Shown here in pieces: positions 10,098-27,877 of a DNA stretch of 49,224 bases. How positions within the stretch are numbered: the first letter of the stretch is position 1; every line of letters starts with the position of its first letter. The notes beneath the pieces were generated by a model that searched no databases, was not told where the DNA came from, and saw only the letters and a list, made by a program, of their open reading frames with translations. The translations under genes were made by a program, and so were the position numbers. The stretch is from an uncultured Caryophanales bacterium (GTDB taxonomy: Bacteria; Bacillota_I; Bacilli_A; RF39; UBA660), in assembly GCA_948442255.1 (NCBI GenBank), contig CAOJRT010000010.1, positions 1-49,224 of the forward strand, given 5' to 3'.

Positions 10098-11016
10098 ATC
10101 CGTGTCTACCGCCTCCAGAGTGTCCTCCACCAGAAGAACCTGAATGTCCTCCTCTTGAAAAACTACTTCCGCTAGATGTGGAAATCGTATAGTGCGTCAC
10201 ATGAGAATGTAAAAATTGATTTTTTTTCTCTGTAATAGATACGCTTTCTTTATTTAAGTATTGCGTTGCTACTACTGCTTTTTTAACCATTTTATTCTTA
10301 GAAATTGTAATTCCCAAAAAAATGACTGTTAGAATAATAGAAAGGAGAGTCGCTAAAAGAAAGGGAGGAACATACTTTTTAATGAGAACCCCATTTTCAT
10401 CGAGAGTATAATGCTTTATATAAGGGTCTTTTCCTTCTTTATAATAGTTGCTCATATCTTTAATAAGCCGTTCTAATCCTTCCATGTAATTAGCTGAACG
10501 AAAATCATTATAAATAGAATCTAAAAGAATATTATTACGCTCTTCAGAATAATAAAGCTGTGCTTCACCAAAATAATAAACACCATAATAAGGATCCGCC
10601 TTGTAAGTATTTCTAAATATAATAACTCCACTATAGTAGGAATTCTCTAATCCAAAATCATTATAATCATAAAAATCCGCTGCATAATCTTCATTTTTTT
10701 TATCGGAGGAATAACTAATATTATCACTCAAAAAAACAAGAGAGAATCCCGTCAATTCTTCATAGGCTAAAATCAAATGATACAATTCTTCTTCCTCTTC
10801 ATTCGTTAATATATTAGAAAAATCATAGATTTTTTCTCTCGCATCCACATAGGGAGTTTTTAAAGCATAACGAATTCTTTCTTCGTTCATGTCCCATTTT
10901 TTATTGACTCCATAATTATTTTCTTCTGTACGATTCATCTGGTGTGTAGAAGCATAAGTGATATCTAAAAAAATAAAGAAGAAAAGAAAACTAATGAATA
11001 AATATTTTTTTCTCAT
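10096..11016 (-). CDS. TPM-domain (YgcG-like) membrane protein with Gly/Ser/His-rich tail
   Basis: 306 residues from ATG at 11016. The longer frame to 11034 is rejected because GGAGGG lies just upstream of 11016. Signal peptide or anchor at about 3-22, extracytoplasmic TPM domain at about 50-195 (YVDAREKIYDFSNILTNEEE start), transmembrane helix near 220-240, then a cytoplasmic part ending in a flexible G/S/H-rich tail. TPM proteins are linked to membrane-protein quality control and cofactor or photosystem assembly elsewhere. The bacterial role is unclear. It overlaps the upstream gene by ATGA, so the two are translated together. Confidence 0.85.
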   Translation of the reverse strand: MRKKYLFISFLFFFIFLDITYASTHQMNRTEENNYGVNKKWDMNEERIRYALKTPYVDAREKIYDFSNILTNEEEEELYHLILAYEELTGFSLVFLSDNISYSSDKKNEDYAADFYDYNDFGLENSYYSGVIIFRNTYKADPYYGVYYFGEAQLYYSEERNNILLDSIYNDFRSANYMEGLERLIKDMSNYYKEGKDPYIKHYTLDENGVLIKKYVPPFLLATLLSIILTVIFLGITISKNKMVKKAVVATQYLNKESVSITEKKNQFLHSHVTHYTISTSSGSSFSRGGHSGSSGGGHSGGGRHG

Positions 11017-15249: not shown

Positions 15250-15274
15250 AAAAAGCAACGCCATGTTGCTTTTT
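15250..15274 (-). terminator. Terminator of the ABC transporter operon (minus strand)
   Basis: Stem AAAAAGCAAC (15250-15259) with GTTGCTTTTT (15265-15274). Read on the minus strand it directly follows the TAA of the permease C-terminal fragment and ends in six T. It is now about 10 kb away from the rest of its operon because of the inserted element. Confidence 0.8.
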
Positions 15275-15449
15275 ATGATTTAATTAATATCTTTTCAAGA
15301 ATAGAAATAATTTTATAGATAAGAAAAGATATAATACCAAGTAAAACGATACCAGCTAATACTAAGTTTAAATTAAATACTTGCGTTCCATAAATAATTA
15401 AATATCCAATACCAGCTTTACTAACTAAAAATTCTCCCATAATAACGCC
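15273..15449 (-). pseudogene. C-terminal fragment of ABC transporter permease split by the element
   Basis: The minus strand reads VIMGEFLVSKAGIGYL..., ending IKS-stop at 15275-15273. This is the conserved last part of BPD_transp_1 permeases of the SsuC/TauC/ThiX class (GEFLVSKAGIGYLI box and last membrane helix). It has no start of its own. The N-terminal 205 codons lie at 26098-25484, on the other side of the 10-kb element. Joining both at the shared GG (15449-15448 and 25483-25482) gives codon GGC and one continuous 263-codon frame, so the gene is interrupted rather than decayed. Confidence 0.93.
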
Positions 15450-15470
15450 GACCTAAGACATATAGGGAGA
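15437..15470. other. attL site
   Basis: Left junction: permease sequence (ATAACG side), core CC at 15448-15449, GAC, then arm CTAAGACATAT (15453-15463). The crossover dinucleotide is deduced because only GG (minus strand) keeps both the permease frame and the arm symmetry. Confidence 0.88.
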
Positions 15471-15524
15471 ATTTATAAATAAAGGCTTTTTTGTTTAAGA
15501 ACTTGCATGTATTGGAGGAATTAG

Positions 15525-16145
15525 ATGGGAAAAGCTAATTGTCCGTTTTGTAATAGTGGGAATACATTTAATATTGCCTATGGATATTTAGGGGAAAAGA
15601 AAACGAAAAAGAATTATATTAACCAAGAGGACATTGGATTAAATGAATCTTATCGTAAGGGATTTGAAAAATATGACTTTGATGGTGAACGATTAATGAG
15701 CCATTTACCTAATCGTTATTGTAAGACTTGTAAGAATACTTTTCAATCTAGAAAAGTTATGTATACAGTTGATATATCAATCATTAACTTTATCATTTGT
15801 ATTAACAATAACTATTATAGATATATCCTTGATTTTAGTGATAAAGAAAATCCAAAATATTCTTTAAGAATCAATTGGGTATCTATTAAAGAAAATGAAT
15901 CTCTTACAATTGATAACAAAAATAAAATTCTTTCTAGTTTTAAGAACTATAAGCCTAATATTTGGAATGGTCATTATGGTAAAAATTATGATTATGATGA
16001 ATACTATTGGATATTAAAATGTACCTATTACAACGGAGTTGATTATGTAAAAAGTGGTAATGATAAAGTTCCTGACAATTGGAGGCATTTTATAAAACCA
16101 TTTAAAGAAATATTTGTGAGTAATATTTTTGATTTAGAGTCCTAA
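15525..16145 (+). CDS. Element protein with zinc-ribbon motifs, unknown
   Basis: 206 residues, ribosome site GGAGG 9 bases before ATG, first gene inside attL. CxxC pairs at residues 6-9 (CPFC) and about 66-69 (CKTC) would form one zinc ribbon flanking a charged insert. The rest is Tyr/Asn/Lys-rich without a recognised domain (ends FKEIFVSNIFDLES). No membrane segment. It could be a DNA-binding or adaptor protein of the element. Function not recognised. Confidence 0.6.
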   Translation: MGKANCPFCNSGNTFNIAYGYLGEKKTKKNYINQEDIGLNESYRKGFEKYDFDGERLMSHLPNRYCKTCKNTFQSRKVMYTVDISIINFIICINNNYYRYILDFSDKENPKYSLRINWVSIKENESLTIDNKNKILSSFKNYKPNIWNGHYGKNYDYDEYYWILKCTYYNGVDYVKSGNDKVPDNWRHFIKPFKEIFVSNIFDLES

Positions 16146-16194
16146 GAAATTAGGATTTTTTCATGTATAAAAATAAAAAGAAAGGGTGATTATA

Positions 16195-16979
16195 ATGGCT
16201 GTATTTAAAGTTGAAAAAACTAAAATTTTTACAATTATGAGTAATCACCATCTACAAAACAAAAATCTAAGTTTAAAAGCTAAAGGGCTTCTTTCTTATA
16301 TGTTATCTCTACCTAGTGATTGGGATTATTCACTTGCTGGACTTGTTTCTAACTCTAAAGAAAGTAAAACATCAATTAGAAATACACTAAATGAATTAAA
16401 AGAAAATCATTATCTTTCTATAACTAAACTATATCCTAATCAAACTGAAAGTAAGAAAATTGAATATGTTTATAATATCTATGAAGAACCTCGTTTAGAA
16501 CCATCTATACAAAAGCAAGATACCGAAAACCAATACATTGATTTTCAATCTCTTGAAAATGATACACAACTAAATACTAATAAACAAAGTATGAAAGAAC
16601 AAACAGATAAAGTAGATAAAACCAAAATAAAATTTTTGAAGATAATCATCATTTTTTAACAATTGATTTAATAGATAGGAAATATATTACAAAAGATGAT
16701 ACTGATATTTATAATTATGACAAGCTATTTGAAAATCTATTAAATGAGTATGAAACAAAGGATTTGCTGATGATTTTGCACTATATTATACCAAGAGTCC
16801 TAGTTCGTGATTTTGTTGATGAGAATGGTGAAAAAATATCAAATAAGTTTGGGTATCTAAAAAACTCTATTTTAAATAATATAGATAGGTTAAAAAATAA
16901 TGAACTTGAATGGGATGAAGAGCTAGGATGGTTTAAAGAAAATGAACTAAATCAGGAAGAATATGAGATAGATATGTGA
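16195..16979 (+). pseudogene. HTH replication-initiator-A-like protein, frameshifted
   Basis: ATG at 16195 after AAAGGGTGA (the GTG at 16186 lies in the ribosome site). Residues of about 1-90 match the N-terminal winged-helix domain common on Firmicute plasmids and integrative elements (NKNLSLKAKGLLSYMLSLPSDW, NELKENHYLSITK). A Gln/Asn-rich linker follows. The frame stops at 16659 with KIIIIF, but from about 16630 the -1 frame continues with sensible protein (KIFEDNHHFLTIDLID...) to TGA at 16979. The shift maps to the A4T5 run near 16629-16637, where one extra base would restore a protein of about 261 residues. It lacks a canonical slippery heptamer, so mutation or sequencing error is likelier than programmed shifting. 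Confidence 0.75.
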
Positions 16980-17055
16980 TATAATGAATATAGATTATTT
17001 ACTTATATGGTTTATAAATCTTAATCTTGTAAATGTATATCATAAGGAGGTAAAA

Positions 17056-18447
17056 ATGTTTATATCAAAACTTTTAATAAGAAATTATAGATTGTTTAAT
17101 AACGATAATGAACATTCATTTAATGAATTTAATATTCCTGATAATGTAAATGAAGGTTCTGGTTTAACTGTTTTTGTTGGTGAAAACGGTTGTGGAAAAA
17201 CAACGATATTAGATGCAATTTCATCGTGTATGTTAGAATACAAAGCTGAAGCATTTAATATTTCTGATATGAATGATCCAAAAGAAAAAACAGAAATTAA
17301 AATTTTTGCAGATAAAGATTTTAATGTTTCAGGAACATTCCCTAATACTGACTTTATGTCTAAAGGCATATGCTTTAAAGGTAGTTTAAGAACTAGAGGT
17401 AGTAAATCTTTTCTTTTATCACCAGTAGTTTATGATCAATTATTTATAAAAGTTGATCCAAACAAACCAAAGGATAATAGCCCAGATTTAAGATTAAGTG
17501 TTAATAATCCATTTAGCGGTAAGCGTTTTAATGATACTGATATACTTTATTTAGATAAAAATAGAATATTTCAAACTCGTTCTGGAACTTATAACAATAC
17601 TAGATTTGATAGAATTATGAATGATTTTGATTTTCAGTATACTAAAAATTCTACAGATATTGAAGATTTAAATTTAGATTTAAATGAAAAAATCAAAAGA
17701 AATAAGATAGAAAATAAATTTTTAGAAAATGCAATAAATGAATTTGAAAAAATAAGTGATTATAAAGTACAGCTTGATTTTATAGACAATTATCATCCAT
17801 TTAAAAATGCTAACTTTATAATTAAAAAAGATAATAATCAACAAATTGCTTTATCAAGTCTTGGCTCTGGTTATGAAATGCTATTTTCTTTGATTTATTC
17901 TTATTATATGTCAATTCAAAATGATAAAAAATTAATAATACTTATTGATGAACCTGAATTGCATTTGCATCCAAATATTCAGAAGAAATTTATTGATTTT
18001 TTATTAAATATTTCAAAAAGTGTGCAAATTATTATTACAACTCATTCTACACTTTTGATTAAACAAATTGCTTATAATAGTTATGTTAAAACTGTAATTT
18101 TAAACAAAAATTCTAGTTATACTCTAATGTCTAATAGAAAATTGTCTTATATATCTTACAACGAAACTAATTATTTGGCATTTGGCTTAGCTACAGAGGA
18201 ATATCATAATGAATTATATGAGCAATTAAAAGATTTACATGGTTCTAGTCTTGGAATTAAAGATTTTGATTATCAATTCTTTATCAGTGTTAAAGGTGAA
18301 CAAGCAAATTATCCATGGAAAGGAAATGCAAATGAAGTTTCTCTACATACTTTTGTAAGAAATCAAATACATCATCAATCTGATAATGGAAAAGTAAATC
18401 AATACGATTTAGAAAATTCAATTAAAATAATGAGAATGTATATTTAG
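17056..18447 (+). CDS. AAA15-family ATPase with C-terminal HEPN-like motif (candidate defence protein)
   Basis: 463 residues from ATG at 17056 after AAGGAGG. The in-frame extension to 16984 has no ribosome site. Walker A GENGCGKT at 42-49, LSSLGSGYE signature, Walker B LIILIDEPELHLHP, and H-loop TTHS: an OLD/AAA15 (SMC-like) ATPase with the usual insert between the motifs. The C-terminal about 60 residues end with R435-N-Q-I-H-H440, fitting the RN-x3-H ribonuclease motif of HEPN domains, as in anticodon nucleases such as RloC. No TOPRIM is seen. It stands 30 bp upstream of rhuM inside the mobile element. Abortive-infection-type defence is the best inference, not shown. Confidence 0.75.
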   Translation: MFISKLLIRNYRLFNNDNEHSFNEFNIPDNVNEGSGLTVFVGENGCGKTTILDAISSCMLEYKAEAFNISDMNDPKEKTEIKIFADKDFNVSGTFPNTDFMSKGICFKGSLRTRGSKSFLLSPVVYDQLFIKVDPNKPKDNSPDLRLSVNNPFSGKRFNDTDILYLDKNRIFQTRSGTYNNTRFDRIMNDFDFQYTKNSTDIEDLNLDLNEKIKRNKIENKFLENAINEFEKISDYKVQLDFIDNYHPFKNANFIIKKDNNQQIALSSLGSGYEMLFSLIYSYYMSIQNDKKLIILIDEPELHLHPNIQKKFIDFLLNISKSVQIIITTHSTLLIKQIAYNSYVKTVILNKNSSYTLMSNRKLSYISYNETNYLAFGLATEEYHNELYEQLKDLHGSSLGIKDFDYQFFISVKGEQANYPWKGNANEVSLHTFVRNQIHHQSDNGKVNQYDLENSIKIMRMYI

Positions 18448-18477
18448 TATTTTAATAATAATTAGGAGGTGATTACA

Positions 18478-19497
18478 ATGAAACCAGATATATTTAAAGA
18501 TTTAATTTTATATCAAAGTGAAAATGGAAATGTACAAGTTGAGGTTTTGTATGATAATGAAGATTTTTGGCTTACTCAAAAAACAATGGCTGAATTATTT
18601 GGATGTACTTCTGATAACATAGGATTACATCTTAAAAATATCTACAAAGAAAAAGAATTAAATAAAGATGCAACAACCGAGAAAATCTCGGTTGTTCAAA
18701 AAGAAGGAAATAGAAATGTTAAAAGAAAAGTAGATTTTTATAGTTTAGATGCTATTATTGCTGTTGGTTATCGTGTTAATTCAAAAGAAGCTACTGATTT
18801 TAGAATATGGGCAACTAACACTTTAAAAGAATATATAAAAAAAGGTTTTGTTTTAAATACTGAATTGTTAAAAAACGGTCCTAAATTTGGTAAAGATTAC
18901 TTTGATGAATTATTAGTTAAAATCAAAGAAATTAGAGCTAGTGAAAGAAGATTTTATCAAAAGATTACCGATATTTATAAAGAATGTAGTTATGATTATG
19001 ATAAAAATAGTGAAACAACAAAAGAATTCTACAAAAATGTTCAAAATAAGTTGCACTTCGCTATTACAGGAATGACAGCACCAGAGATTATATATAATAG
19101 AGTTGATTCAAAGAAAGATTATATGGGACTTCAAACGTGGAAGAATGCACCTGATGGTAAAATCCTTGAAACAGATGTTGTAATTGCTAAAAACTATCTA
19201 TCAGAAGAAGAAATAAAAGAACTTAATAATTTAGTATCTATGTATTTAGATTTTGCTGAAAGACAGGTTAAATTAGGACATATTATTTCTATGCAAGAAT
19301 GGAAAGATAAATTAGAAATGTTTTTAAATTTAAATGAATATAACATTTTAAAAGATAATGGCAAAATTAAAAGGGAAATAGCAGATAAATTAGCATTAGA
19401 TGAATATGAAAAATATCGTGTAGTGCAAGATCAAAAGTATATATCTGATTTTGATGAATTAGTACTAGAAACTAAAAGTATAGAAACGCAAGAATAA
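18478..19497 (+). CDS. RhuM family protein
   Basis: 339 residues from ATG at 18478 (AGGAGGTGA upstream, the GTG at 18469 lies within it). The N-terminal domain (about 20-120) has the family pattern FWLTQKTMAELFGCTSDNIGLHLKNIY, then VDFYSLDAIIAVGYRVNS and ATNTLKEYI, i.e. a KilA-N/Bro-like putative DNA-binding module. The C-terminal part is a helical domain (TGMTAPEIIYNRVDSKK, AERQVKLGH). RhuM was named from a Salmonella pathogenicity island and is frequent on mobile elements and in defence islands; mechanism unknown. It probably shares a transcript with the AAA15 gene just upstream. Confidence 0.88.
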   Translation: MKPDIFKDLILYQSENGNVQVEVLYDNEDFWLTQKTMAELFGCTSDNIGLHLKNIYKEKELNKDATTEKISVVQKEGNRNVKRKVDFYSLDAIIAVGYRVNSKEATDFRIWATNTLKEYIKKGFVLNTELLKNGPKFGKDYFDELLVKIKEIRASERRFYQKITDIYKECSYDYDKNSETTKEFYKNVQNKLHFAITGMTAPEIIYNRVDSKKDYMGLQTWKNAPDGKILETDVVIAKNYLSEEEIKELNNLVSMYLDFAERQVKLGHIISMQEWKDKLEMFLNLNEYNILKDNGKIKREIADKLALDEYEKYRVVQDQKYISDFDELVLETKSIETQE

Positions 19498-19498
19498 T

Positions 19499-19557
19499 GT
19501 TCCCTTCTCCATACAGATTATAGTATTTTGTATGGAGAAAGGAACATACAAAATACT
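19499..19557 (+). promoter_or_regulatory. Two overlapping, mutually exclusive hairpins before the cupin gene
   Basis: Hairpin 1: 19499-19514 pairs with 19530-19545 (16 bp with one mismatch). Hairpin 2: 19522-19533 AGTATTTTGTAT pairs perfectly with 19546-19557. They share 19530-19533 and hairpin 2 loops out the rest of the hairpin 1 right arm, so the two cannot form fully together. No long T tract follows. This could be a terminator/antiterminator, a translational switch or RNA processing site between rhuM and the cupin gene. Confidence 0.55.
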
Positions 19558-19579
19558 TACTAAGGAAAGGAAAGATGAA

Positions 19580-19924
19580 ATGGAATTTATTAAAAAAGAA
19601 AAAGCAGAATTTTATAGTGGAGATGGTTATTCAGGTATGGATTATCCTTCAGCTGATAAAGATATAAATTTTGCAGTAATAAAAATAAATAGTAGAAGTC
19701 CAAAAACGGGATTTCAAGTAAATATAAATTGCAAAGAGTTATTATATATCATTAATGGTAATGGAATTATGTATATGAAAGATAGTGATGAAAAAATAAA
19801 TTTTAATCAAGGAGATGTAATTCTTATCAATAAAAATGAATGTTATGCTTTTGATGGTAACTTTGAAGCAGCAGTTCCTTGTACACCAGCGTGGACAAGT
19901 GAACAACATAAATATGTTGATTAG
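19580..19924 (+). CDS. Cupin-domain protein
   Basis: 114 residues from ATG at 19580 with AAGGAAAGG upstream. The in-frame start at 19532 would lie inside the hairpin region. A single small cupin barrel: ELLYIINGNGIMYMKDSDEKINFNQGDVILINKNECYAFDGNFEAAVPCTPAW. Cupin motif 1 is weak because the usual His pair is absent (GNGIMYM), so metal binding is doubtful. It starts the cupin-dipeptidase-pnuC-HAD cargo run (20-bp gap to the dipeptidase). It may be a sugar or amino-acid isomerase-like or sensory protein. Specific role unknown. Confidence 0.78.
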   Translation: MEFIKKEKAEFYSGDGYSGMDYPSADKDINFAVIKINSRSPKTGFQVNINCKELLYIINGNGIMYMKDSDEKINFNQGDVILINKNECYAFDGNFEAAVPCTPAWTSEQHKYVD

Positions 19925-19944
19925 TAATAAAAGAGGGATAATAT

Positions 19945-21255
19945 ATGAGAGAAACTTTAATTAACAATTTTTTAAGAATTTCTAGAATACCTAGAGAATC
20001 AGGACACGAACAAAAAATAGCAGATTTCTTTGTTAATATTGCTAAAGAAAATAATCTATACTATTTTAAAGATGAAAATAATAATGTTTTAATTAAGAAA
20101 AAAGGTAATGTTGATTCTAAACCAATCGCACTACAAGCACATTTAGATATGGTATGTGTTAAAAATAAAGATAGCAATCATAATTTTGAAAATGATGGAA
20201 TTGAAGTAATCATTGATGGTGATAAAGTAACTGCTAAAGATACTTCTTTAGGTGCAGATCAAGGTGTGGGTCTTTCCATGATGCTGACTATTATGGAAGA
20301 TAATACTTTAAAGCACCCTGATTTAGAATTTCTTTTTACTACTGAAGAAGAAACTACATTTAATGGTGCGGTAACATTTCCATATGATAAAGTTGAAAGT
20401 AATAGATTAGTAAATTTAGATTATGATAAAGATAATGCTGTAGTTAATGGCTCCGATGGAGATATATTAAATGAATATTCTGCTAAAGGAAAAATAATTG
20501 AAAATAATTTGCCTAGTTATAAAATATTAATAGACAGTTTTCCAGGTGGTAACTCTGGAGAGAATATAGAGTTATCATCATACAATGCAATCACTACAAT
20601 GGCAAGGATATTAAAAAATAAAGATATTCTTTTAAAAAGTATAAATGGTGGAACATTTGAAAATGATTTAGCGACTTATTGTGAAGTTATAATTAATACA
20701 AATATTGATGTTGAGAAAATATTTCAAGATTTATCAGCTAAAATAGAAAAGGTAGATAATAAATATTGTTTTTCAGGTGAAGATACTAGAAATATTATAA
20801 GTGAAATATTAGATTTGAAATGTGGATATATATCAGGTACTGCTTCTGGAAATTTAGGTATGATAAGAACAAAAGATAATGAAGTGAAAATTAATTATAT
20901 TGTTAGAAGTATTGATCAAGTTGAATTAGAAGATATTAGCAATAAAAGTAAAGCATTAAATAATAATTTCCAAGTTGATGAAATATATAGAGATTCTATA
21001 TGGAAAGTTAATAAAGAATCAGAATTGTTAAATAAATATAAAGATTTATATTTCAACAAATTTAATAAATATCCAAAAGAAAAAATTGGACATGGTGGAA
21101 CTGAATGTTCTTCAATAAAGAAAAGAATAGATGAATTAGACATAATTTCTATTGGGGCTAATATGGAAAATATTCATACAACAGCGGAAACAACATATAT
21201 CAGCTCATGGTTAAAAACATATGATTTATTAATTAAATTTATTGAATCTTTGTAA
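19945..21255 (+). CDS. Aminoacyl-histidine dipeptidase (PepD-like, M20 family)
   Basis: 436 residues, ribosome site AGAGGGA upstream of ATG. M20 metallopeptidase motifs in order: AHLDMVC (metal His/Asp), SLGADQGVG (bridging Asp), TTEEET (catalytic and metal Glu), NLDYDKDN, GHGGTECSS and NIHTTAE (last metal His). The ligand set is complete, so the enzyme should be active, cleaving Xaa-His or related dipeptides in the cytoplasm. It is slightly shorter than E. coli PepD (485). Unusual as mobile-element cargo. It is followed 27 bp later by the broken pnuC. Confidence 0.9.
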   Translation: MRETLINNFLRISRIPRESGHEQKIADFFVNIAKENNLYYFKDENNNVLIKKKGNVDSKPIALQAHLDMVCVKNKDSNHNFENDGIEVIIDGDKVTAKDTSLGADQGVGLSMMLTIMEDNTLKHPDLEFLFTTEEETTFNGAVTFPYDKVESNRLVNLDYDKDNAVVNGSDGDILNEYSAKGKIIENNLPSYKILIDSFPGGNSGENIELSSYNAITTMARILKNKDILLKSINGGTFENDLATYCEVIINTNIDVEKIFQDLSAKIEKVDNKYCFSGEDTRNIISEILDLKCGYISGTASGNLGMIRTKDNEVKINYIVRSIDQVELEDISNKSKALNNNFQVDEIYRDSIWKVNKESELLNKYKDLYFNKFNKYPKEKIGHGGTECSSIKKRIDELDIISIGANMENIHTTAETTYISSWLKTYDLLIKFIESL

Positions 21256-21282
21256 AAGAAAATAAATGGGTGGTTATAACAA

Positions 21283-21961
21283 ATGAATAAGAAATATTTA
21301 ATAATAACAATTTTAAGTTTAATTATTTCAGTCATATCAGGTATTATTTCCAAAGATTTAATGATTGGAGGAACGATTCTTTTAACAGGACTTTTATGTG
21401 CTTATTTTGCTAGTGAAGGGAAAAGAATAAATTATATACTAGGTTTAATAAATTACTTGTTAATGGGATATGTTGCCTTTAAAAATAATTTATTTGGTAT
21501 CTTCTTCTTTTACATATTCATTTTTTCTCCACTTCAAATTAATGGTTTTATTACTTGGAATAAAAACCTAAATGGGTGATAAGAATGTTAAGGTACGAGA
21601 ATTTACTTTTAAAAATTCTATTATTATAACTTTATCTTGTATAATAGGAAGTATTATTTTAGGTTATTTATTAACTTTAATACCTACTCAAAGATTAGCA
21701 TTTATGGATGCTACTTCAAATTGTATAAATCTTTGTGGAGTCATTTTAATGATATTAAGATTTAAAGAATCATGGTGGTTATGGTTAATAAATAATATTA
21801 TAGATTTAATAATTTGGATTATAACTGCAATAAATGGTGGAAATGGATCAATAATGATGCTTCTTGTATCGGTTGGCTATTTATTAATAAATATTTATGG
21901 TGTTATAAAGTGGAATATTGAAGCCAAAAACAATAGAATTAGAGGTGAATTAAATGAGTAA
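21283..21961 (+). pseudogene. pnuC: PnuC-family vitamin transporter gene, frameshifted
   Basis: Two overlapping frames, 21283-21579 and 21572-21961, make the N- and C-terminal halves of one PnuC protein of about 225 residues. The first ends in the family motif LQINGFITWNKN. The second holds DATSNCINLCGVILMILRFKESWWLW and the final helices. Deleting one base in AATGGGTGATAAG (21571-21583) fuses them. PnuC proteins take up nicotinamide riboside, and relatives (PnuT, PnuX) thiamine or riboflavin. The ATG of the second half overlaps the first stop and lacks a convincing ribosome site, so two functional half-proteins are less likely than a broken gene or sequencing error. Confidence 0.82.
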
Positions 21962-22663
21962 AATTATATTTAGTGATTATGATGGAACTTTAGATACAAG
22001 TGAAAATGATATAGCAAAAAATATTGAAGCAATTCAAAAATTTAGAAATAATGGGAATTTATTTGTAATTGCAACAGGCAGAAGTTATTTAGATTTAAAA
22101 AGAAAACTTGATTTATATCCTATACCATTTGATTATTTAATTGTAAATCATGGAGGAGTTATTTTAGATAAAAATGAAATAGTTATTGATGCTTGTTTAA
22201 TTCCTAAAAATATTGGTGTTGAGATTTTAGATACAGTAAAATCTAATGAAAATTTAGAACAAATAATTCTTTTTGATACTATGAAAAAAGATATAAAAGA
22301 TATATCAGATGAACTTACAAAATTATGTTAGAAATGAAAGACGAAAAGTCTGCTAGAGATTTATCTGAAGTTATAAATGAAAATTGGAAAGAAACAGTTA
22401 AATCCTATGTTATAATAACGAAAAAATATTATTTAGTTGAAATTATTTCTATAAAAACGGATAAGGGAAAGGCTATTGAAAAAATATTAAAAATTGAAAA
22501 TATATCCGATACTGATGTTTATCCTATTGGTGATGGAGCTAATGATGTAGAAATGATTTTAAAATATAATGGTTATGGTATGAAAAAATCTGAAGAGGTT
22601 GTTTATAAAGCAACAAATAAACTTTGTAATACTGTTGCTGAATTGATAGAAACTTTAAATTGA
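21954..22663 (+). pseudogene. Cof-type HAD-IIB hydrolase gene, frameshifted
   Basis: Frame 1 (21954-22331) carries motif I SDYDGTLDTS (nucleophile Asp), motif II ATGRS and the start of the cap. Frame 2 (22325-22663) carries the rest of the cap, the motif III Lys (KTDKGKAIEKIL) and motif IV GDGANDVEM. One added base near 22318-22326 (AAAATTATG) gives a normal enzyme of about 236 residues reading LTK-x-MLEMKDEKSA. It overlaps the pnuC end by 8 bp (GAGTAAAA region), so the pair was one transcript. The family dephosphorylates sugar phosphates, FMN, PLP or HMP-PP. Pairing with PnuC hints at nucleotide-vitamin processing (inference). Confidence 0.82.
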
Positions 22664-22693
22664 ATTATAAAATATTGAAACATTTCTAATTGA

Positions 22694-22732
22694 GATAGTT
22701 AAAAACTATTTGGTCTAGAGCTATCATTTTTT
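22694..22732 (+). terminator. Probable terminator after the HAD gene
   Basis: GATAG (22694-22698) pairs with CTATC (22721-22725), followed by ATTTTTT. The loop contains a competing ATAGTT/AACTAT hairpin. The stem is short, so moderate support. Confidence 0.4.
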
Positions 22733-22861
22733 ATTAAATTTTAATATTAAAAATGGAATTTTTTGTTTTTTGATAAAGTGTAAAAAAAGTAAATTTTTAG
22801 AATTTTTGCAAATCCTTATAAATACTGAGCAAAACAGGTATGAATTCATTTTCAATTTCCG

Positions 22862-22890
22862 TTTACTTTCCTATTAAATCGTGCTATTAT
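22862..22890 (+). promoter_or_regulatory. Sigma-A-type promoter
   Basis: TTTACT (22862-22867), 17-bp spacer, TATTAT (22885-22890). Transcription would begin about 22897 and meet a terminator hairpin after roughly 85-105 bases, giving an attenuated leader or a short RNA. Confidence 0.6.
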
Positions 22891-22980
22891 GGTAATATAG
22901 GATAATTGAAAGGAAGTACTAAAATATTTACTTTTAAATTAACCTATATAATATTTTAAAATATAAAATTGGACTTTAGG

Positions 22981-23003
22981 GAGATATATTATCTCTCTTT
23001 TTT
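22981..23003 (+). terminator. Leader terminator
   Basis: GAGATA (22981-22986) pairs with TATCTC (22990-22995) with a 3-base loop, then TCTTTTTT. It can extend with GGAC at 22971-22974 and GTCC at 23007-23010. It ends the transcript from the promoter at 22862. Confidence 0.65.
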
Positions 23004-23110
23004 CATGTCCTTTTTTATATTTTTAAAAGAAAGGAGCGTGAGTTTATAAATAAAACATGAAAATAGTAATATTATTTGTTAATTTTTTAATGAATTTTGA
23101 AAAAATCTTT

Positions 23111-23190
23111 AAACTGTCGGAGACTAATAGAGGGTCTTAGGGATATGCCCTAACGAGTATTGGGTGTGTAGACACCATGCTTGATAGTTT
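23111..23190 (+). ncRNA. Candidate structured RNA or cis-regulatory leader
   Basis: Noticeably higher GC than its surroundings and foldable into a closed multihelix: closing stem AAACTGTC (23111-23118) with GATAGTTT (23183-23190); TTAGGG/CCCTAA at 23137-23142 and 23148-23153; GGTGT/ACACC at 23163-23167 and 23172-23176 with a GTAG loop; a short AGAC/GTCT helix near 23121 and 23134. No reading frame fits. It lies about 60 bp before the gene at 23250. I cannot assign it to a known RNA family. Confidence 0.5.
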
Positions 23191-23249
23191 TAATAGTAAA
23201 AAAGACCAATTTCAGTAATCCCAAATTTTAAAGAAAAGGAGGCATTTTC

Positions 23250-23789
23250 ATGGGAAAATTGTATGTTGATCCTTATTGGTTTCTTTGTAAGAAACTTTCA
23301 TTTTCATATCAAGAACATTTTGAAATTTTGAAAAAAATAAAAAGGCGTTCTAAATGGTGGAGTGCGTTTTGTTATCGAAAGTCAACAGTAGACGGATCTA
23401 CTATTACTTCTGTATCCGTAGAATGTCTAATTTGGTTTATAGAAGTAGAATTCAAAGAAGGTAATTCAAAAGATTTAAAAATTAATTTTCTTGAAAGGTA
23501 TATTGAAGTGCTAGAAGACTATTTGGAAATTCCTCATGAAAGACTAGAGTATTGTGATCTACCATTAAAATATTTAAGAACTCATTTTAATAAAACCAAA
23601 AATGCTATAGGAGTAGCAACAAATAGAATGCAGAAACATTTTCCTTATCCACTTAAATATATTAAGTATGGAAAGGTTTATGTTTCTGCTGTTGGTGTTA
23701 AATGGTTAAATGAAAAGTATTTTAGAACGAAGTATATTGAGTATTTAGAAACCTATAAAGACTCGTTAGAAAGTAGAATTTCTAATTAG
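23250..23789 (+). CDS. Element protein of unknown function, upstream of recombinase
   Basis: 179 residues, AAAGGAGG 7 bases before ATG. Aromatic and basic (YVDPYWFLCKKLSFSYQEHFE start; KKIKRRSKWWSAFCYRKS; later LRTHFNKTKNAIGVATNRMQKHF), predicted soluble and largely helical, with no signal or membrane segment. No family recognised. Position between the structured leader and the recombinase resembles the slot for recombination directionality or replication accessory genes in other elements, but there is no motif to support a specific role. Confidence 0.65.
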   Translation: MGKLYVDPYWFLCKKLSFSYQEHFEILKKIKRRSKWWSAFCYRKSTVDGSTITSVSVECLIWFIEVEFKEGNSKDLKINFLERYIEVLEDYLEIPHERLEYCDLPLKYLRTHFNKTKNAIGVATNRMQKHFPYPLKYIKYGKVYVSAVGVKWLNEKYFRTKYIEYLETYKDSLESRISN

Positions 23790-23851
23790 TCTTTTTTTGA
23801 TGTAATCAGTCTTGTGTCTTAAAAATATAATTTAGAGAGGGAGCTGTTTAT

Positions 23852-23968
23852 ATGAATTTAACTATTGAGAACTATGATAAGAATGAAAATAGAATTGAAC
23901 CTAAAAAAATAATTTTAAATCAGGCATTAATATATACATTGCTAAAGAAGTATCTAAAAGAAGTGTAA
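23852..23968 (+). CDS. Small element protein, 38 residues
   Basis: ATG at 23852 with GAGGGAG upstream and TAA at 23966-23968. Sequence begins MNLTIENYDKNENRIEPKK, followed by an amphipathic helix (IILNQALIYTLLKKYL). The good ribosome site and location just before the serine recombinase gene support expression. It could be an excision factor or simply a leader peptide. No family recognised. Confidence 0.5.
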   Translation: MNLTIENYDKNENRIEPKKIILNQALIYTLLKKYLKEV

Positions 23969-24064
23969 TAATCTATAAGTATTTCATTTTTTGTATAAAA
24001 ATGGTATTATGTAGTTGCAAGTTTTTTTACAAAAAATGCTTTTATAAAAGAAGGAGGAAAAAAT

Positions 24065-25441
24065 ATTAACGATATAAAAGCAGAAGTAAAAAAAATTAAA
24101 GCTCTTTATGTTCGTGTATCAACAGATGCTCAAGTTGATGGATATTCAATAGAAGCTCAAATAGAATCATTAGAAGGTTACTTGAAAAGTCAAGGATGGT
24201 CTGATTATGAATTATATGCTGATCCAGGATTTAGTGGTAAGAACTTAGAAAGACCTGCAATTCAGAAATTAATAAAAGACTGTGAAGATGGAAAAATTGA
24301 TACGGTTTTAGTTTTCAAACTAGATAGACTATCTCGTAGTCAAAAAGACACTTTATATTTAATTGAAGAAATATTTAATAATAATGAAGTTGGTTTTATT
24401 TCTGTTAGAGAAAGCTTTGATACGACTACTCCATTTGGTAAGGCAATGATTGGAATATTATCAGTATTTGCTCAATTAGAAAGAGAAACTATTTTAGAGC
24501 GTACTAGAATAGGTCTTAAAAAGCGAGCTGAAAATGGTTATTGGCGTGGTGGCGGTAAAACTCCTTTCGCTTATGATTACGACAAAGAAGCAGGTATGTT
24601 AGTTGTTAATGGTGAAAGAAAAGTCATCTTTGATTTAATGAAAACATTAAGACTTCAAGGATATAGTTATAATGAACTTTCTAAAGTAACAGGATATGAT
24701 GAATCATGGATTCAAGGAATATTAAGTTCTAAAACTAATTTAGGGAAGATTCCATTTAAAGGTGAACTTTATGATGGCAAACATGAAGCCATAATTAGTG
24801 AAGAAGAATATAAGCAATTACAGGAAATAGAAAAACAAAGAAGCAAGAATCAACATGCAAGTCATTACTTGTTATCAGGTAAAATATATTGTGGTAATTG
24901 TGGAGCAAAGTACCGTTATCAAAAATGGGGACAAAGAATTATTTGTTATTGCTACTCTCAACAAAAGAGTAAACCAAAACTAATCAAAAATCCTAATTGT
25001 AATAATATAAGGCTTGATAGTTTTGAAATTGAGGATAACTTCTTGGAACAATTATTTGCCATGTCTTTAAATGAAGAATTATTTAGAGATACTTTTGATT
25101 TATCTAAAACAAATCTTGTTGATGAACTTAATTTAAGACTTGATAAGACACAGAAAAAAATTGAAAACTTGATTCAGTTACTTTCAGATAATATAGCAAA
25201 TGAAGAAATAAAAAAGGAACTTGCTAAATTAACAAGTGAAAAGTCTAATATAAAAAAAGAGCTAGAAAATATAAAAGAAAAAGAAAGAGCAACCAAAACT
25301 TATGATAAAATTAAAAATCTAGAAAGTGTTTGGACGGGCATGGAATTTAAAGAAAAAAGAAATGTCGTAGAACAATTACTAGATAAAATAGTTGTAGATG
25401 GTGCGTCGCTAAAGATATATTGGAATGTTAGTGAAAGCTAA
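24065..25441 (+). CDS. Large serine recombinase (integrase of the element), probable ATT start
   Basis: 458 residues if started at ATT 24065, seven bases after AAGGAGG (24051-24057). No ATG, GTG or TTG in frame follows the ribosome site before the catalytic motif, and a TTG at 24182 would cut it off. Catalytic Ser19 lies in YVRVSTDAQ; the resolvase domain (about 12-160) contains FKLDRLSRSQKDTL and QLERETILERTRIG. Then come a recombinase domain, a zinc beta-ribbon (YCGNCGAKY, with later CYCYS and NPNC) and a coiled coil (about 325-420), the full TnpX/TndX/phiC31-like order. It ends 40 bp from attR. It should catalyse attP x attB integration with the GG crossover. Confidence 0.92.
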   Translation: MNDIKAEVKKIKALYVRVSTDAQVDGYSIEAQIESLEGYLKSQGWSDYELYADPGFSGKNLERPAIQKLIKDCEDGKIDTVLVFKLDRLSRSQKDTLYLIEEIFNNNEVGFISVRESFDTTTPFGKAMIGILSVFAQLERETILERTRIGLKKRAENGYWRGGGKTPFAYDYDKEAGMLVVNGERKVIFDLMKTLRLQGYSYNELSKVTGYDESWIQGILSSKTNLGKIPFKGELYDGKHEAIISEEEYKQLQEIEKQRSKNQHASHYLLSGKIYCGNCGAKYRYQKWGQRIICYCYSQQKSKPKLIKNPNCNNIRLDSFEIEDNFLEQLFAMSLNEELFRDTFDLSKTNLVDELNLRLDKTQKKIENLIQLLSDNIANEEIKKELAKLTSEKSNIKKELENIKEKERATKTYDKIKNLESVWTGMEFKEKRNVVEQLLDKIVVDGASLKIYWNVSES

Positions 25442-25457
25442 CATAAAAAATATAGAG

Positions 25458-25495
25458 TTTTCTCTACATATGTCTTAGCTCCCAATTAATGTCAT
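25458..25495. other. attR site
   Basis: Arm ATATGTCTTAG (25468-25478), CTC, core CC (25482-25483), then permease sequence AATTAATGTC. The arm-to-core distance (3 bases) equals that in attL. TCTC outside the arm is also partly shared with attL in inverted orientation, so the true recombinase site is probably longer than 11 bp. Confidence 0.88.
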
Positions 25496-26098
25496 AGAAA
25501 TATTAATCTTTAAAGAAGATATAATTGTATGATAGGAGTTAGGTATTACAACATATCTTAATATTTGCCATTTATTTGCGTGTAAAGACTGCATCATCTT
25601 TATTTTTATCGGTTCTATAGATTGAAATCCATTATAAATGTTAAAAATACTAATAATGACATTAATTAATAAGGCCATGATAATTATGGATTGTATATTA
25701 GCTCCAAACCATATAATCAAAATAGGTCCTAATGCCACTTTAGGTAATGAATTTAACATTGTTAGAAAGGGCTCCAATACTTTATATAATAACGGAAAAA
25801 TATAAATTAATAAAGCAACAATAAATCCTATAGATATTCCAATCAAAAAGGAAATAAAGACTTCATATAAAGTAGTATAAATATGTACAAATAAATTATT
25901 TGCTTGATATAAATCAACAAAACATTTTATAATTTTAGATGGACTACTATAAATAAAAGAATTGATAAGTTGGTATCTTGCTAATAATTCCCATCCTAAA
26001 ATGAAAGTAACAAGTAAGAAGAGTTGTATGCTAATAACAATTATTTTATTCTTTTTTATTTTTTTTAAAAAAGCTTTTTGACTATTAGATAATGACAT
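25484..26098 (-). pseudogene. N-terminal part of ABC transporter permease split by the element
   Basis: ATG at 26098 overlaps the ATPase stop by 14 bp. 205 native codons end in ISMTLI; translation then runs into attR and stops after G-S at 25475. Membrane helices at about 21-42, 68-95, 105-125 and 130-155, and the EAA-like loop (SLHANKWQILRYVVIPNS) mark a BPD_transp_1 permease of the SsuC/TauC/ThiX class. The missing GEFLVSKAGIGYL end is at 15447-15273. The truncated product lacks the last helix or helices and is probably non-functional until the element leaves. Confidence 0.93.
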
Positions 26099-26840
26099 CT
26101 AAACATCTCCATATTTTCTCATAATACTGAGTAAACTCTTCTGTGTTTCTTTTTTCTATTGTTGATAACTTTTTATTAAATGTTATAGGAATAATTGTTT
26201 TTACATAACATGGTCTTTTTGAAAGGACAACGACTTTATCAGCAACACTAATCGCTTCAGCAAGATCATGAGTAACTATAATCATCGTAATATGCTCTCT
26301 CTTGCAAATGGAAACCACATCTTCACAGATAAGTAGTCTTGTTTGGTAATCTAAGGCACTGAATGGCTCATCTAACAACAGTAAATCCGGTTTTAAAGCA
26401 AGGGTACGAATAAGTGCAACTCTTTGTTTCATTCCACCTGAGAGACTAGTCGGTTTTTTGTCTTTAAAATCATATAAATCATAAAGTTTTAACAACTTAT
26501 TTACATAGTCAATATGTTCTTTATCATATAAATGATTTATTTTTAATCCAATTGTGGCATTATCATATATGCTTAACCAAGGAAGTAAAGCATCTTGCTG
26601 AAGCATATAACCAACTGTCACATCTTTAGTAAAGAAAAATTCTCCATCTGATTCTTTATCGAGTGCAGATAAGATAGATAGTAGTGTGCTTTTTCCACAG
26701 CCACTACTACCTACAATCGCAACAAATTCCCCTTCTTTTACTTCTAAGCTAATATTGGATATAGCTGCTATCTCTCCACTTAAAGTATTATACCTTTTAC
26801 TTAAATTGTTGATAACTAATAAGTTATTCACAACATGCAT
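26085..26840 (-). CDS. ABC transporter ATP-binding protein (SsuB/TauB/ThiZ class)
   Basis: 251 residues. Walker A GSSGCGKS at 44-51, Q-loop QQD at 81-83, signature LSGGMKQR at 133-140, Walker B LLLLDEP (D157/E158), and H-loop TH. It is the cytoplasmic motor of an importer for small anionic or aromatic solutes (sulfonate, nitrate, taurine or thiamine precursor). It overlaps the binding-protein gene by 17 bp and the permease by 14 bp, so the three are co-translated. The enzyme itself is intact even though its permease is interrupted. Confidence 0.93.
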   Translation of the reverse strand: MHVVNNLLVINNLSKRYNTLSGEIAAISNISLEVKEGEFVAIVGSSGCGKSTLLSILSALDKESDGEFFFTKDVTVGYMLQQDALLPWLSIYDNATIGLKINHLYDKEHIDYVNKLLKLYDLYDFKDKKPTSLSGGMKQRVALIRTLALKPDLLLLDEPFSALDYQTRLLICEDVVSICKREHITMIIVTHDLAEAISVADKVVVLSKRPCYVKTIIPITFNKKLSTIEKRNTEEFTQYYEKIWRCLDVII

Positions 26841-27813
26841 TATTAATTAAATCATTATAGGAAACATAATCATCAATTAAATTATCGCTTTTCATTATAT
26901 CTTGTAAATGAACAAATGATTCCTCGCTAATATAAGTAGTATCTAACCATGAATCTGCATCTCTATAATTTTTAACAATAGTAGTGATTTCATTCAATGA
27001 AGAATCAGGAAATTGTTTTAATATGGTTTTCGCTACTTCTTCATCACTATTTTCTTTAACAAAAGTTAATCCTTTATTTAAAGCTCTTGTAAATTTATCA
27101 ATTGTTTCTTTGTTATTTTCTATGTAGCTCTTTCTAGCATTAAACGCAGTATAAGGAACTTCTCCAGAAAGCATTCCTATACTTCCTACTATATAACCTA
27201 AGCCAGTACTTTCTAACTTTGTTGCATTAGGTTCAAATAAATTAACAAAGTCACCAGTACCTCCAATAAACGCTCCAGATAAAGAAGCAAACTCAATCGT
27301 ATAATTTAAATTGATTTTATTTAAATCACTACCAGAATTATTTACCGCATTAATAAAATTTAACGCTGGCATTCCTGCTTTTCTTCCTACTAAAACTTCT
27401 TTGCCATATAAATCTTCAATAGAGAAATTCTCCATTTTTTCTCTTGCTACAATAAATTGCCCATCTCTTTTAGTAAGTCCAGCAAATGATTGGATAAAGT
27501 CTTTCTCTCCACCATTGTATACATAAATGGTACTCTCTGGTCCACAAAAACCTATTTCTACATCGTTAGATAAAACAGCTGCTGCAACTTTATCTGCTCC
27601 TGGAGTCAATATAACTTCTATGTCTAATCCTTCTTCTTTAAAGTATCCTTTTTCTAAAGCAACATACCAAGGTGCATAAAATACACTATGTGTTACTTCA
27701 GCAACACGTATTTTTGTTAAGTCTTCCTCTTTTTTGTCTTGCATTTTTACAACCCCAATGATTGCAAAGACAATTAAAATAAGACTACTAAAAATAATTA
27801 TAAACTTTTTCAA
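26824..27813 (-). CDS. NMT1/THI5-like substrate-binding protein of the ABC importer
   Basis: 329 residues from TTG at 27813, directly after AGGAGGGATTT. The further upstream TTG at 27834 precedes that ribosome site and is rejected. An N-terminal hydrophobic segment (about 2-22, KKFIIIFSSLILIVFAIIGVV) has no lipobox Cys, so the protein is probably anchored by an uncleaved helix. The periplasmic-binding fold follows (VFYAPWYVALEKGYFKEEGLDIEV, NDVEIGFCGPEST, KEVLVGRKAGMPALNF). This family binds thiamine pyrimidine precursors, sulfonates or similar ligands. Which one cannot be told, and no THI-box riboswitch is visible upstream. Confidence 0.88.
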   Translation of the reverse strand: MKKFIIIFSSLILIVFAIIGVVKMQDKKEEDLTKIRVAEVTHSVFYAPWYVALEKGYFKEEGLDIEVILTPGADKVAAAVLSNDVEIGFCGPESTIYVYNGGEKDFIQSFAGLTKRDGQFIVAREKMENFSIEDLYGKEVLVGRKAGMPALNFINAVNNSGSDLNKINLNYTIEFASLSGAFIGGTGDFVNLFEPNATKLESTGLGYIVGSIGMLSGEVPYTAFNARKSYIENNKETIDKFTRALNKGLTFVKENSDEEVAKTILKQFPDSSLNEITTIVKNYRDADSWLDTTYISEESFVHLQDIMKSDNLIDDYVSYNDLINNACCE

Positions 27814-27877
27814 AAAAATCCCTCCTAAGTTCAATGTATTATATTCTATAAATAATAAATAAGTTCATATTAAGACA

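Follow-up and report, generated by a model that had tools for sequence, protein, structure and literature searches.

What has split an ATP-binding cassette (ABC) permease gene of an uncultured Caryophanales bacterium, and could the gene be made whole again? The gene lies on the minus strand of contig CAOJRT010000010.1 (GenBank assembly GCA_948442255.1). We analysed this contig over its full 49,224 nucleotides, hereafter the window; it is contig C10 of an 80-contig draft genome (G000) of 1.64 Mb and 89% completeness. An inserted element spanning 15448..25483, both copies of a GG dinucleotide included, separates the two parts of the gene, with the same boundaries in relatives. Our answer, to which we assign a probability of roughly 0.88, is that a 10,034-bp serine-recombinase element, most likely placed by its own recombinase, splits the permease at a GG in codon 206 and is predicted to leave exactly, rejoining the gene.

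The boundaries were read from the junctions and from relatives. On the minus strand, the permease 5′ part (25482..26098; 205 codons plus GG, Pfam BPD_transp_1) runs from 26098 to 25484, ends in ATGACATTAATT, and is followed by GG (25483-25482) and then by element DNA. The 3′ part (15273..15449; 57 codons and a stop codon after a GGC codon) restarts with GG (15449-15448), continues with CGTTATTATGGG from 15447, and ends with the stop codon at 15275-15273. When the flanks are joined over one GG, a stop-free permease frame of 263 codons results, which contains LIGVIMGEFLVSKAGIGYL and has the GG crossover inside codon 206. The 2-bp core GG is identical at the two element ends (15448..15449 and 25482..25483, minus strand), and the empty site of a sister species (below) is gapless, which leaves no target-site duplication beyond GG. 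Joining the element ends gives an attP that has, outside a spacer of three bases on each side of GG, two perfectly paired stretches of 11 bases. The arms, ATATGTCTTAG at 15453..15463 and CTAAGACATAT at 25468..25478 (both minus strand), were located by this pairing, and no such pairing occurs at any of the 2332 GG centres that the window has on its two strands. The host half-site ATG-TCT-TTA-ATT-GG, common in hosts, is similar to the attP arm side ATGTCTTAG-GTC-GG. An earlier, sequence-only reading of this DNA had proposed the GG crossover, the attP with its 11-bp arms and an undamaged target gene, and all three hold. Its boundaries, 15448 and 25483, are right as junctions, but the span between them holds both GG copies; the mobile unit has one GG and measures 10,034 bp (15450-25483 or 15448-25481). 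Insertion at exact boundaries is thus well supported at the level of the DNA sequence.

The enzyme encoded beside the 5′ junction fits the earlier claim that a large serine-recombinase element interrupts the permease. Its gene (24065..25441, plus strand) has 458 codons with a predicted AUU start after GGAGG. In the corresponding 419-aa open reading frame (ORF), Pfam recognises the Resolvase catalytic domain, the Recombinase domain and a zinc ribbon (Zn_ribbon_recom) in one protein, and the PHROG match is phrog_95, integrase (3.7e-114). NCBIfam models score far below their cut-offs, with 119 bits for XisF (cut-off 375) and, among the SCCmec Ccr models, for example 126 bits for CcrB (cut-off 900). 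Its sequence relatives of solved structure include the TP901-1 and A118 integrases (PDB 3bvp and 4kis), which have related catalytic and C-terminal domains; these are phage integrases, whereas scanning ORFs of the window element brought up no recognisable phage structural gene.

Serine integrases integrate at matching dinucleotides, and excision requires a directionality factor. We propose that the present recombinase recognises as its attB the conserved stretch encoding (S/T)LIGVIMGEFL. In the integrated state, the truncated permease (207 codons) would lack the end of the BPD_transp_1 domain and is probably non-functional; because the last quarter of the permease is missing, the importer is likely off. 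Excision, if catalysed as predicted, would make the permease whole and turn import back on.

The same insertion recurs in other genomes. A scan of genome contigs with the recombinase protein returned 31 loci, in 29 of which the permease 5′ part lies downstream of the recombinase, at most 45 bases away in 28 and 3.6 kb away in L067; L066 and L068 reach the contig end first. Over both collections, and with the window included, we read 47 permease 5′ junctions, three of which (L160, L165, L167) are on duplicate contigs. At 45 of the 47, host sequence ends directly after the same GG; in L115 (genome G032) it remains host-like for ~8 bases beyond GG, so that the crossover point is ambiguous, and L118 (G035) is a contig ending at GG. 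The sequence-only reading had named a sister insertion with different boundaries as evidence against itself; apart from the ambiguous junction and the contig end, all boundaries are the same. The permease 5′ halves are open in 46 of 47 cases, the exception being L118 with its contig end, and the 3′ halves (57-61 codons) in 15 of 15 occupied loci. Could the split be an artefact of assembly or binning? The genomes are metagenome bins or drafts, and many contigs end near the recombinase. Yet after removal of the three duplicates, 42 of 44 contigs with the junction region show element DNA directly after GG, and both element ends lie on one contig in the window and in several relatives, which makes an artefact hardly credible.

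In the surveyed family of uncultured Bacilli, a recombinase belonging to this clade (E up to 1e-50) is present in 16 of 145 genomes and in each of them shares its contig with part of the permease gene. It lies beside the permease 5′ half in 13 genomes, beside the 3′ half in G032 and 1.3 kb from the 3′ half in G147; in G028, the recombinase contig is cut off by the contig end, ~18 kb from the permease 3′ half. Same-codon elements of the clade also occur in distantly related Bacilli, and they range in length from ~2.7 to 33 kb with variable cargo. Among the 72 recombinase pairs that are at least 94% identical, the identity of the host permease halves varies between 42 and 99% (median, 56%). Over all pairs of 32 loci, recombinase identity hardly tracks host permease identity (rho 0.10), which argues that the element most likely moves between hosts while the target codon stays constant. 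One locus, L200 (G335:C4, permease turned to the plus strand), has the permease 3′ fragment twice (10884-10997 and 15918-16031) behind a single 5′ half, probably reflecting two elements in tandem at one attachment site.

Empty sites in relatives match the joined flanks. When 150 bases from each side of the element in the occupied genome G034 were joined and compared with the empty G173, 293 of 300 bases were identical and there was no gap; longer flanks match at 89% and 97%. A different permease sequence at the junction of an element-free relative, which the earlier reading would have counted against insertion, is therefore not what this sister species has. Species with split and with intact permease genes occur together in the genus of the window and in at least eight others (g21, g45, g52, g79, g91, g110, g136, g149); two further mixed genera (g22, g89) rest on contigs ending at the core. 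All 77 intact-permease loci checked, several genomes being counted twice, have an uninterrupted junction motif, mostly LIGVIMGE(F/L)L. The draft genome G110 holds both an intact permease and a 3′-half junction, which are 96.7% alike over 395 bases. In G035 and G225, a contig ends within ~2 bases of the core; this could reflect coexisting occupied and empty forms, but is suggestive only.

Several observations weigh against exact excision by the element's own recombinase. The intact halves may merely reflect recent insertion, and the two forms in G110 may come from two strains, the sources being metagenome bins. A clade-fitted pattern found no attP junction in 386 family genomes, assemblies being a weak test for it: each of the 11 hits to the attP-shaped pattern reads as host codons joined to element DNA, the host half-site being similar to an attP arm. 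The exact attP pattern was likewise absent from viral contigs, where the recombinase scan returned one relative at 27% identity. Lastly, in the two divergent elements L175 (G032:C58) and L100 (G147:C38), the recombinase is at the permease 3′-half side, as if the element or a recombinase module had flipped; this opposite placement is unexplained by the simple model.

Phage and plasmid records were also searched. No recombinase match of at least 60% identity was found among 1185 phage records and the best 5000 plasmid records. A 5.9-kb 'phage' record with a 44% identical recombinase was considered as a circular form and rejected, as neither a terminal repeat of 20-199 bases nor a significant match to the permease was found in it. 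In L191 (MT839977.1, labelled bacteriophage; 112-2007), a 44% identical recombinase abuts what appears by eye to be an internal stretch of a gene for a sporulation sigma factor.

The permease is not the only gene affected. It belongs to the three-gene operon of a predicted nutrient importer, together with genes for an ABC ATPase (26085..26840, minus strand; Pfam) and an NMT1/ThiY-like substrate-binding protein (26824..27834, minus strand), both intact in the window and split in relatives. Among solved structures, those nearest in sequence to the binding protein are 4nmy (9e-11), an unnamed ABC binding protein, and 3ix1 (4e-7), a protein that binds FAMP. The same 145 genomes were searched with all three proteins, results for the ATPase being, here and below, those among the matches listed. 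The operon is present in 114 genomes, and its breakpoints are fixed, at residues ~79, 105, 153 and 205 in the binding protein (SBP), at ~142 and 200 in the ATPase (ATP) and at 206 in the permease. For 42 splits (9 in the permease, 10 in the ATPase and 23 in the binding protein), the two halves are both on a single fetched locus, and every one of these splits has an intervening large serine recombinase ORF. Not counted is an inverted case, L124 (G054:C4, 1736-7394), with the ATPase 5′ part on the plus strand and the ATPase 3′ part and permease inverted ~5 kb away, beside a recombinase of the ATP142 clade; this is an inversion at the insertion site. A hand-made table, in which some splits are inferred from fragments ending at the site or at a contig end, records at least one split in 64 of the 114 operon-bearing genomes, two in 17 and three in 3. 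For example, G077 is split at SBP153, SBP205 and the permease, and in G098 the ATPase is split twice, in addition to SBP205.

The recombinase genes are, judging from their phylogeny, largely specific to each split position. The first tree comprised 103 recombinases, 16 of which were taken as lying elsewhere (not each checked). A single group of 39, with a support of 100, takes in the 37 permease-site rows together with two rows whose site was not reached, and the ATP142 (15 rows), SBP153 (13), SBP205 (12), ATP200 (3) and SBP105 (2) rows each occupy one side of a branch with a support of 98-100. Position labels change 11 times on this tree, compared to 60 times when shuffled. A slower tree of 96 rows (seven truncated, long or doubtful ones dropped; the bootstrap had not settled) is concordant with the first, with the two SBP79 rows joining only weakly. 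For rows outside the permease clade, location in the operon had been the ground for selection, and their site fidelity can therefore not be read from the tree alone. A search with an ATP142 recombinase returned 16 members of at least 56% identity: 12 lie in the importer ATPase gene, the one in G050 adjoins a fragment of a 42% identical ABC ATPase that stops at the same residue, and three are cut off by contig ends, one of them (G063) with an intact operon on another contig. Five further recombinase clades repeat this arrangement in the genes for the ATPase and the binding protein, as does a seventh position seen at two loci; by this sequence survey, the entire operon is thus a landing zone for recombinase elements. 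The single case of the earlier reading is one instance of an operon-wide pattern, with related but distinct recombinases at six further positions. A literature search by title among openly licensed papers found no report of such a split pattern in an importer operon.

Does this pattern reflect something about the importer or about the elements? One explanation is that the importer is dispensable and offers good attB sites, so that elements land there cheaply and their excision is irrelevant to host biology. High occupancy is expected in that case, as are the presence of the recombinases in distant hosts and an independent occupation of positions: 20 genomes have two or more splits compared to 19.3 expected under independence (the genomes are not phylogenetically independent), and no association between split positions, positive or negative, was found in the 114 operon-bearing genomes. 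Distantly related large serine recombinases are also known to share target genes (PMC10083194). Yet the operon is kept in 114 of 145 genomes, and long-useless copies would be expected to decay, whereas the permease halves are open in the proportions given above (46/47 and 15/15). We consider this explanation an even bet. An ATPase match with two TAG codons in G039 is one candidate for decay.

Alternatively, the importer might admit something harmful, such as a toxic analogue or a phage, and the insertions would be favoured loss-of-function alleles. That more than half of the operon-bearing genomes have at least one split in the hand-made table would agree with such selection. Under such selection, point mutations and deletions should often have inactivated the importer as well, yet the permease halves are clean and the full-length matches listed for the three genes are mostly stop-free, a minority carrying one stop; selected inactivation is therefore very unlikely in our judgement.

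A third explanation is programmed rearrangement, in which dedicated elements in one importer operon are removed together in a particular state, a host switch comparable to that of the nif elements in heterocysts. Compatible with it are the restriction of the elements to seven fixed positions of a single operon, the match between recombinase clade and site, the variation in cargo and length, the presence of as many as three elements together, and the open permease halves. The cyanobacterial interruption elements share these features: they occupy fixed positions in several nif-operon targets, with recombinases mostly clustered by position, variable cargo and developmental excision (PMC4874684). 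However, the excised form was not seen in the 386 genomes or the viral contigs, the host family has no known differentiated cell type, positions co-occur as under independence, and no split was recognised in 50 of the 114 operon-bearing genomes. We regard a programmed switch as unlikely.

The ORF caller's start for the recombinase gene of the window, TTG 24182, would remove the YVRVST motif, which we take to be the site of the catalytic serine. No in-frame ATG, GTG or TTG exists upstream, and a GGAGG is located 7 bases 5′ of ATT 24065, which makes this ATT the most likely predicted start of the frame. We surveyed 40 recombinases (the 37 permease-site tree rows plus L066 and L068, whose site was not reached, and L175), 34 of which were readable, five being 5′-truncated and one at a contig edge. 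All 34 have a Shine-Dalgarno-like stretch (GGAGG in 29, weaker in five) followed by ATT (26), ATA (7) or ATC (1). The script sought a start near a ribosome-site match and was hence biased towards finding one; the solid part of this result is the 26 of 34 genes that have no ATG, GTG or TTG before the motif. In the other eight, an ATG four codons before the motif is a plausible alternative start (four genes, L068 even having GGAG before it), or there is an ordinary start 30-36 codons before the motif (four genes). By comparison, 40 of 42 rows read from the other operon clades have an ordinary start codon, which in 22 rows is accompanied by a match to a ribosome site; five ATP142 rows that lack the motif were left out of this count. 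The permease-site clade thus appears, from these predicted starts, to begin translation at AUU, AUA or AUC, and this conserved start probably holds recombinase output low. A literature search found no report on starts of this type in recombinases among the papers listed. The window genome is rich in serine-recombinase genes, as 17 stretches on 12 contigs match the recombinase at E up to 0.001.

The gene infC uses an AUU start under the control of translation initiation factor IF3. One might picture an importer operon assembled by recombination, as a non-cyanobacterial counterpart of the nif system: each of the seven positions would have its own serine recombinase lineage, removal would be regulated, and the permease recombinase would be throttled by its AUU/AUA/AUC start, with IF3 fidelity gating the switch. 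This picture is speculative and, in our view, rather doubtful.

The skin element in sigK and the comK prophages are gene-interrupting elements of Bacillota that resemble the present case, as does SPbeta in spsM: a gene is split in frame, and in those systems a site-specific recombinase excises the element precisely, restoring the gene. For SPbeta, excision is reported to use the recombinase and one small factor (PMC4191935). These are cases of one gene and one element, with spsM excision demonstrated, whereas here seven positions in three genes are involved and excision is predicted; moreover, no phage structural gene was recognised among the scanned ORFs of the window element. The closest parallel is provided by the cyanobacterial elements, which interrupt nifD, nifH, nifK, fdxN and hupL; of the two superfamilies to which their recombinases (XisA, XisC, XisF) belong, one is that of the serine recombinases (PMC4874684). 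The importer system resembles them in having several elements at fixed positions of one operon, position-clustered recombinases, and varying length and cargo. It differs in its Bacilli host, its ABC importer target, its excision, which is predicted here, and its serine recombinases, which are spread over hosts almost unlinked from host divergence. Large serine recombinases with shared target genes, for example Mg chelatase and prolyl isomerase genes, are a further parallel, since diverse enzymes converge on one gene, with an attB in conserved coding sequence (PMC10083194). There the shared targets are single genes, whereas here separate clades use separate positions within one operon, of which several can be occupied together.

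The remaining genes of the element are on its plus strand. Nearest the permease 3′ half is a gene for a 206-aa protein (15525..16145) with no match in Pfam, PADLOC or PHROG, whose relatives occupy the equivalent position in several further elements, followed by a replication-initiator-like HTH_36 gene (16186..16659; Pfam and PHROG scans). A PtuA-like AAA ATPase gene (16984..18447; Pfam, NCBIfam, PADLOC), candidate defence cargo, lies directly 5′ of a RhuM family gene (18469..19497; Pfam, PADLOC candidate PDC-S05), a possible defence pair at 16984-19497. RhuM was considered as a universal accessory factor and dropped, as tblastn found no RhuM in several other complete elements; in L064 (8607-11286), at ~2.7 kb the smallest permease-site element seen, a RhuM gene and the recombinase take up nearly all the space. 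Metabolic cargo follows (19532..22663): a 130-aa protein, cupin-like by eye with no NCBIfam match, a PepD-like dipeptidase, PnuC-like half ORFs, and a HAD hydrolase in overlapping ORFs. The PnuC-like and HAD-like genes (21283-22663) are each spread over two overlapping ORFs, of which the first in the PnuC pair and the second in the HAD pair were named by eye; L049 and L103, two sister elements, contain pieces that match both ORFs of each pair with 92-99% identity. Upstream of the recombinase, a 179-aa protein with no assigned family (23250..23789) is common to many sister elements. No relaxase or conjugation genes were found among the element ORFs scanned with Pfam, NCBIfam, PADLOC and PHROG (not every ORF was scanned), an initiator-like gene being present, and no virion structural genes were found among the six ORFs compared with PHROGs or those compared with Pfam. 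Elsewhere in the window, 32297-32396 matches Rfam n00280, a C. difficile small RNA family inside a helicase gene, above its gathering score. A riboswitch that would point to the substrate was sought in 10 intact-permease loci, but Rfam gave no match that reached the gathering threshold.

To our knowledge, work on why several gene-interrupting elements gather in the same operon has mostly concerned nitrogen fixation in cyanobacteria. The importer operon is a second, unrelated case, and its seven positions, many hosts, and empty and occupied species per genus would allow a comparative test between a switch, a safe harbour and selection for loss. The clades also constitute a set of related serine recombinases whose natural attB sites are well defined and differ from one another, a resource for understanding how specificity changes. 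The conserved non-AUG start in one clade suggests a simple way for a mobile element to keep its recombinase low. If the predicted scarless exit is true, loss of the element would switch the importer back on.

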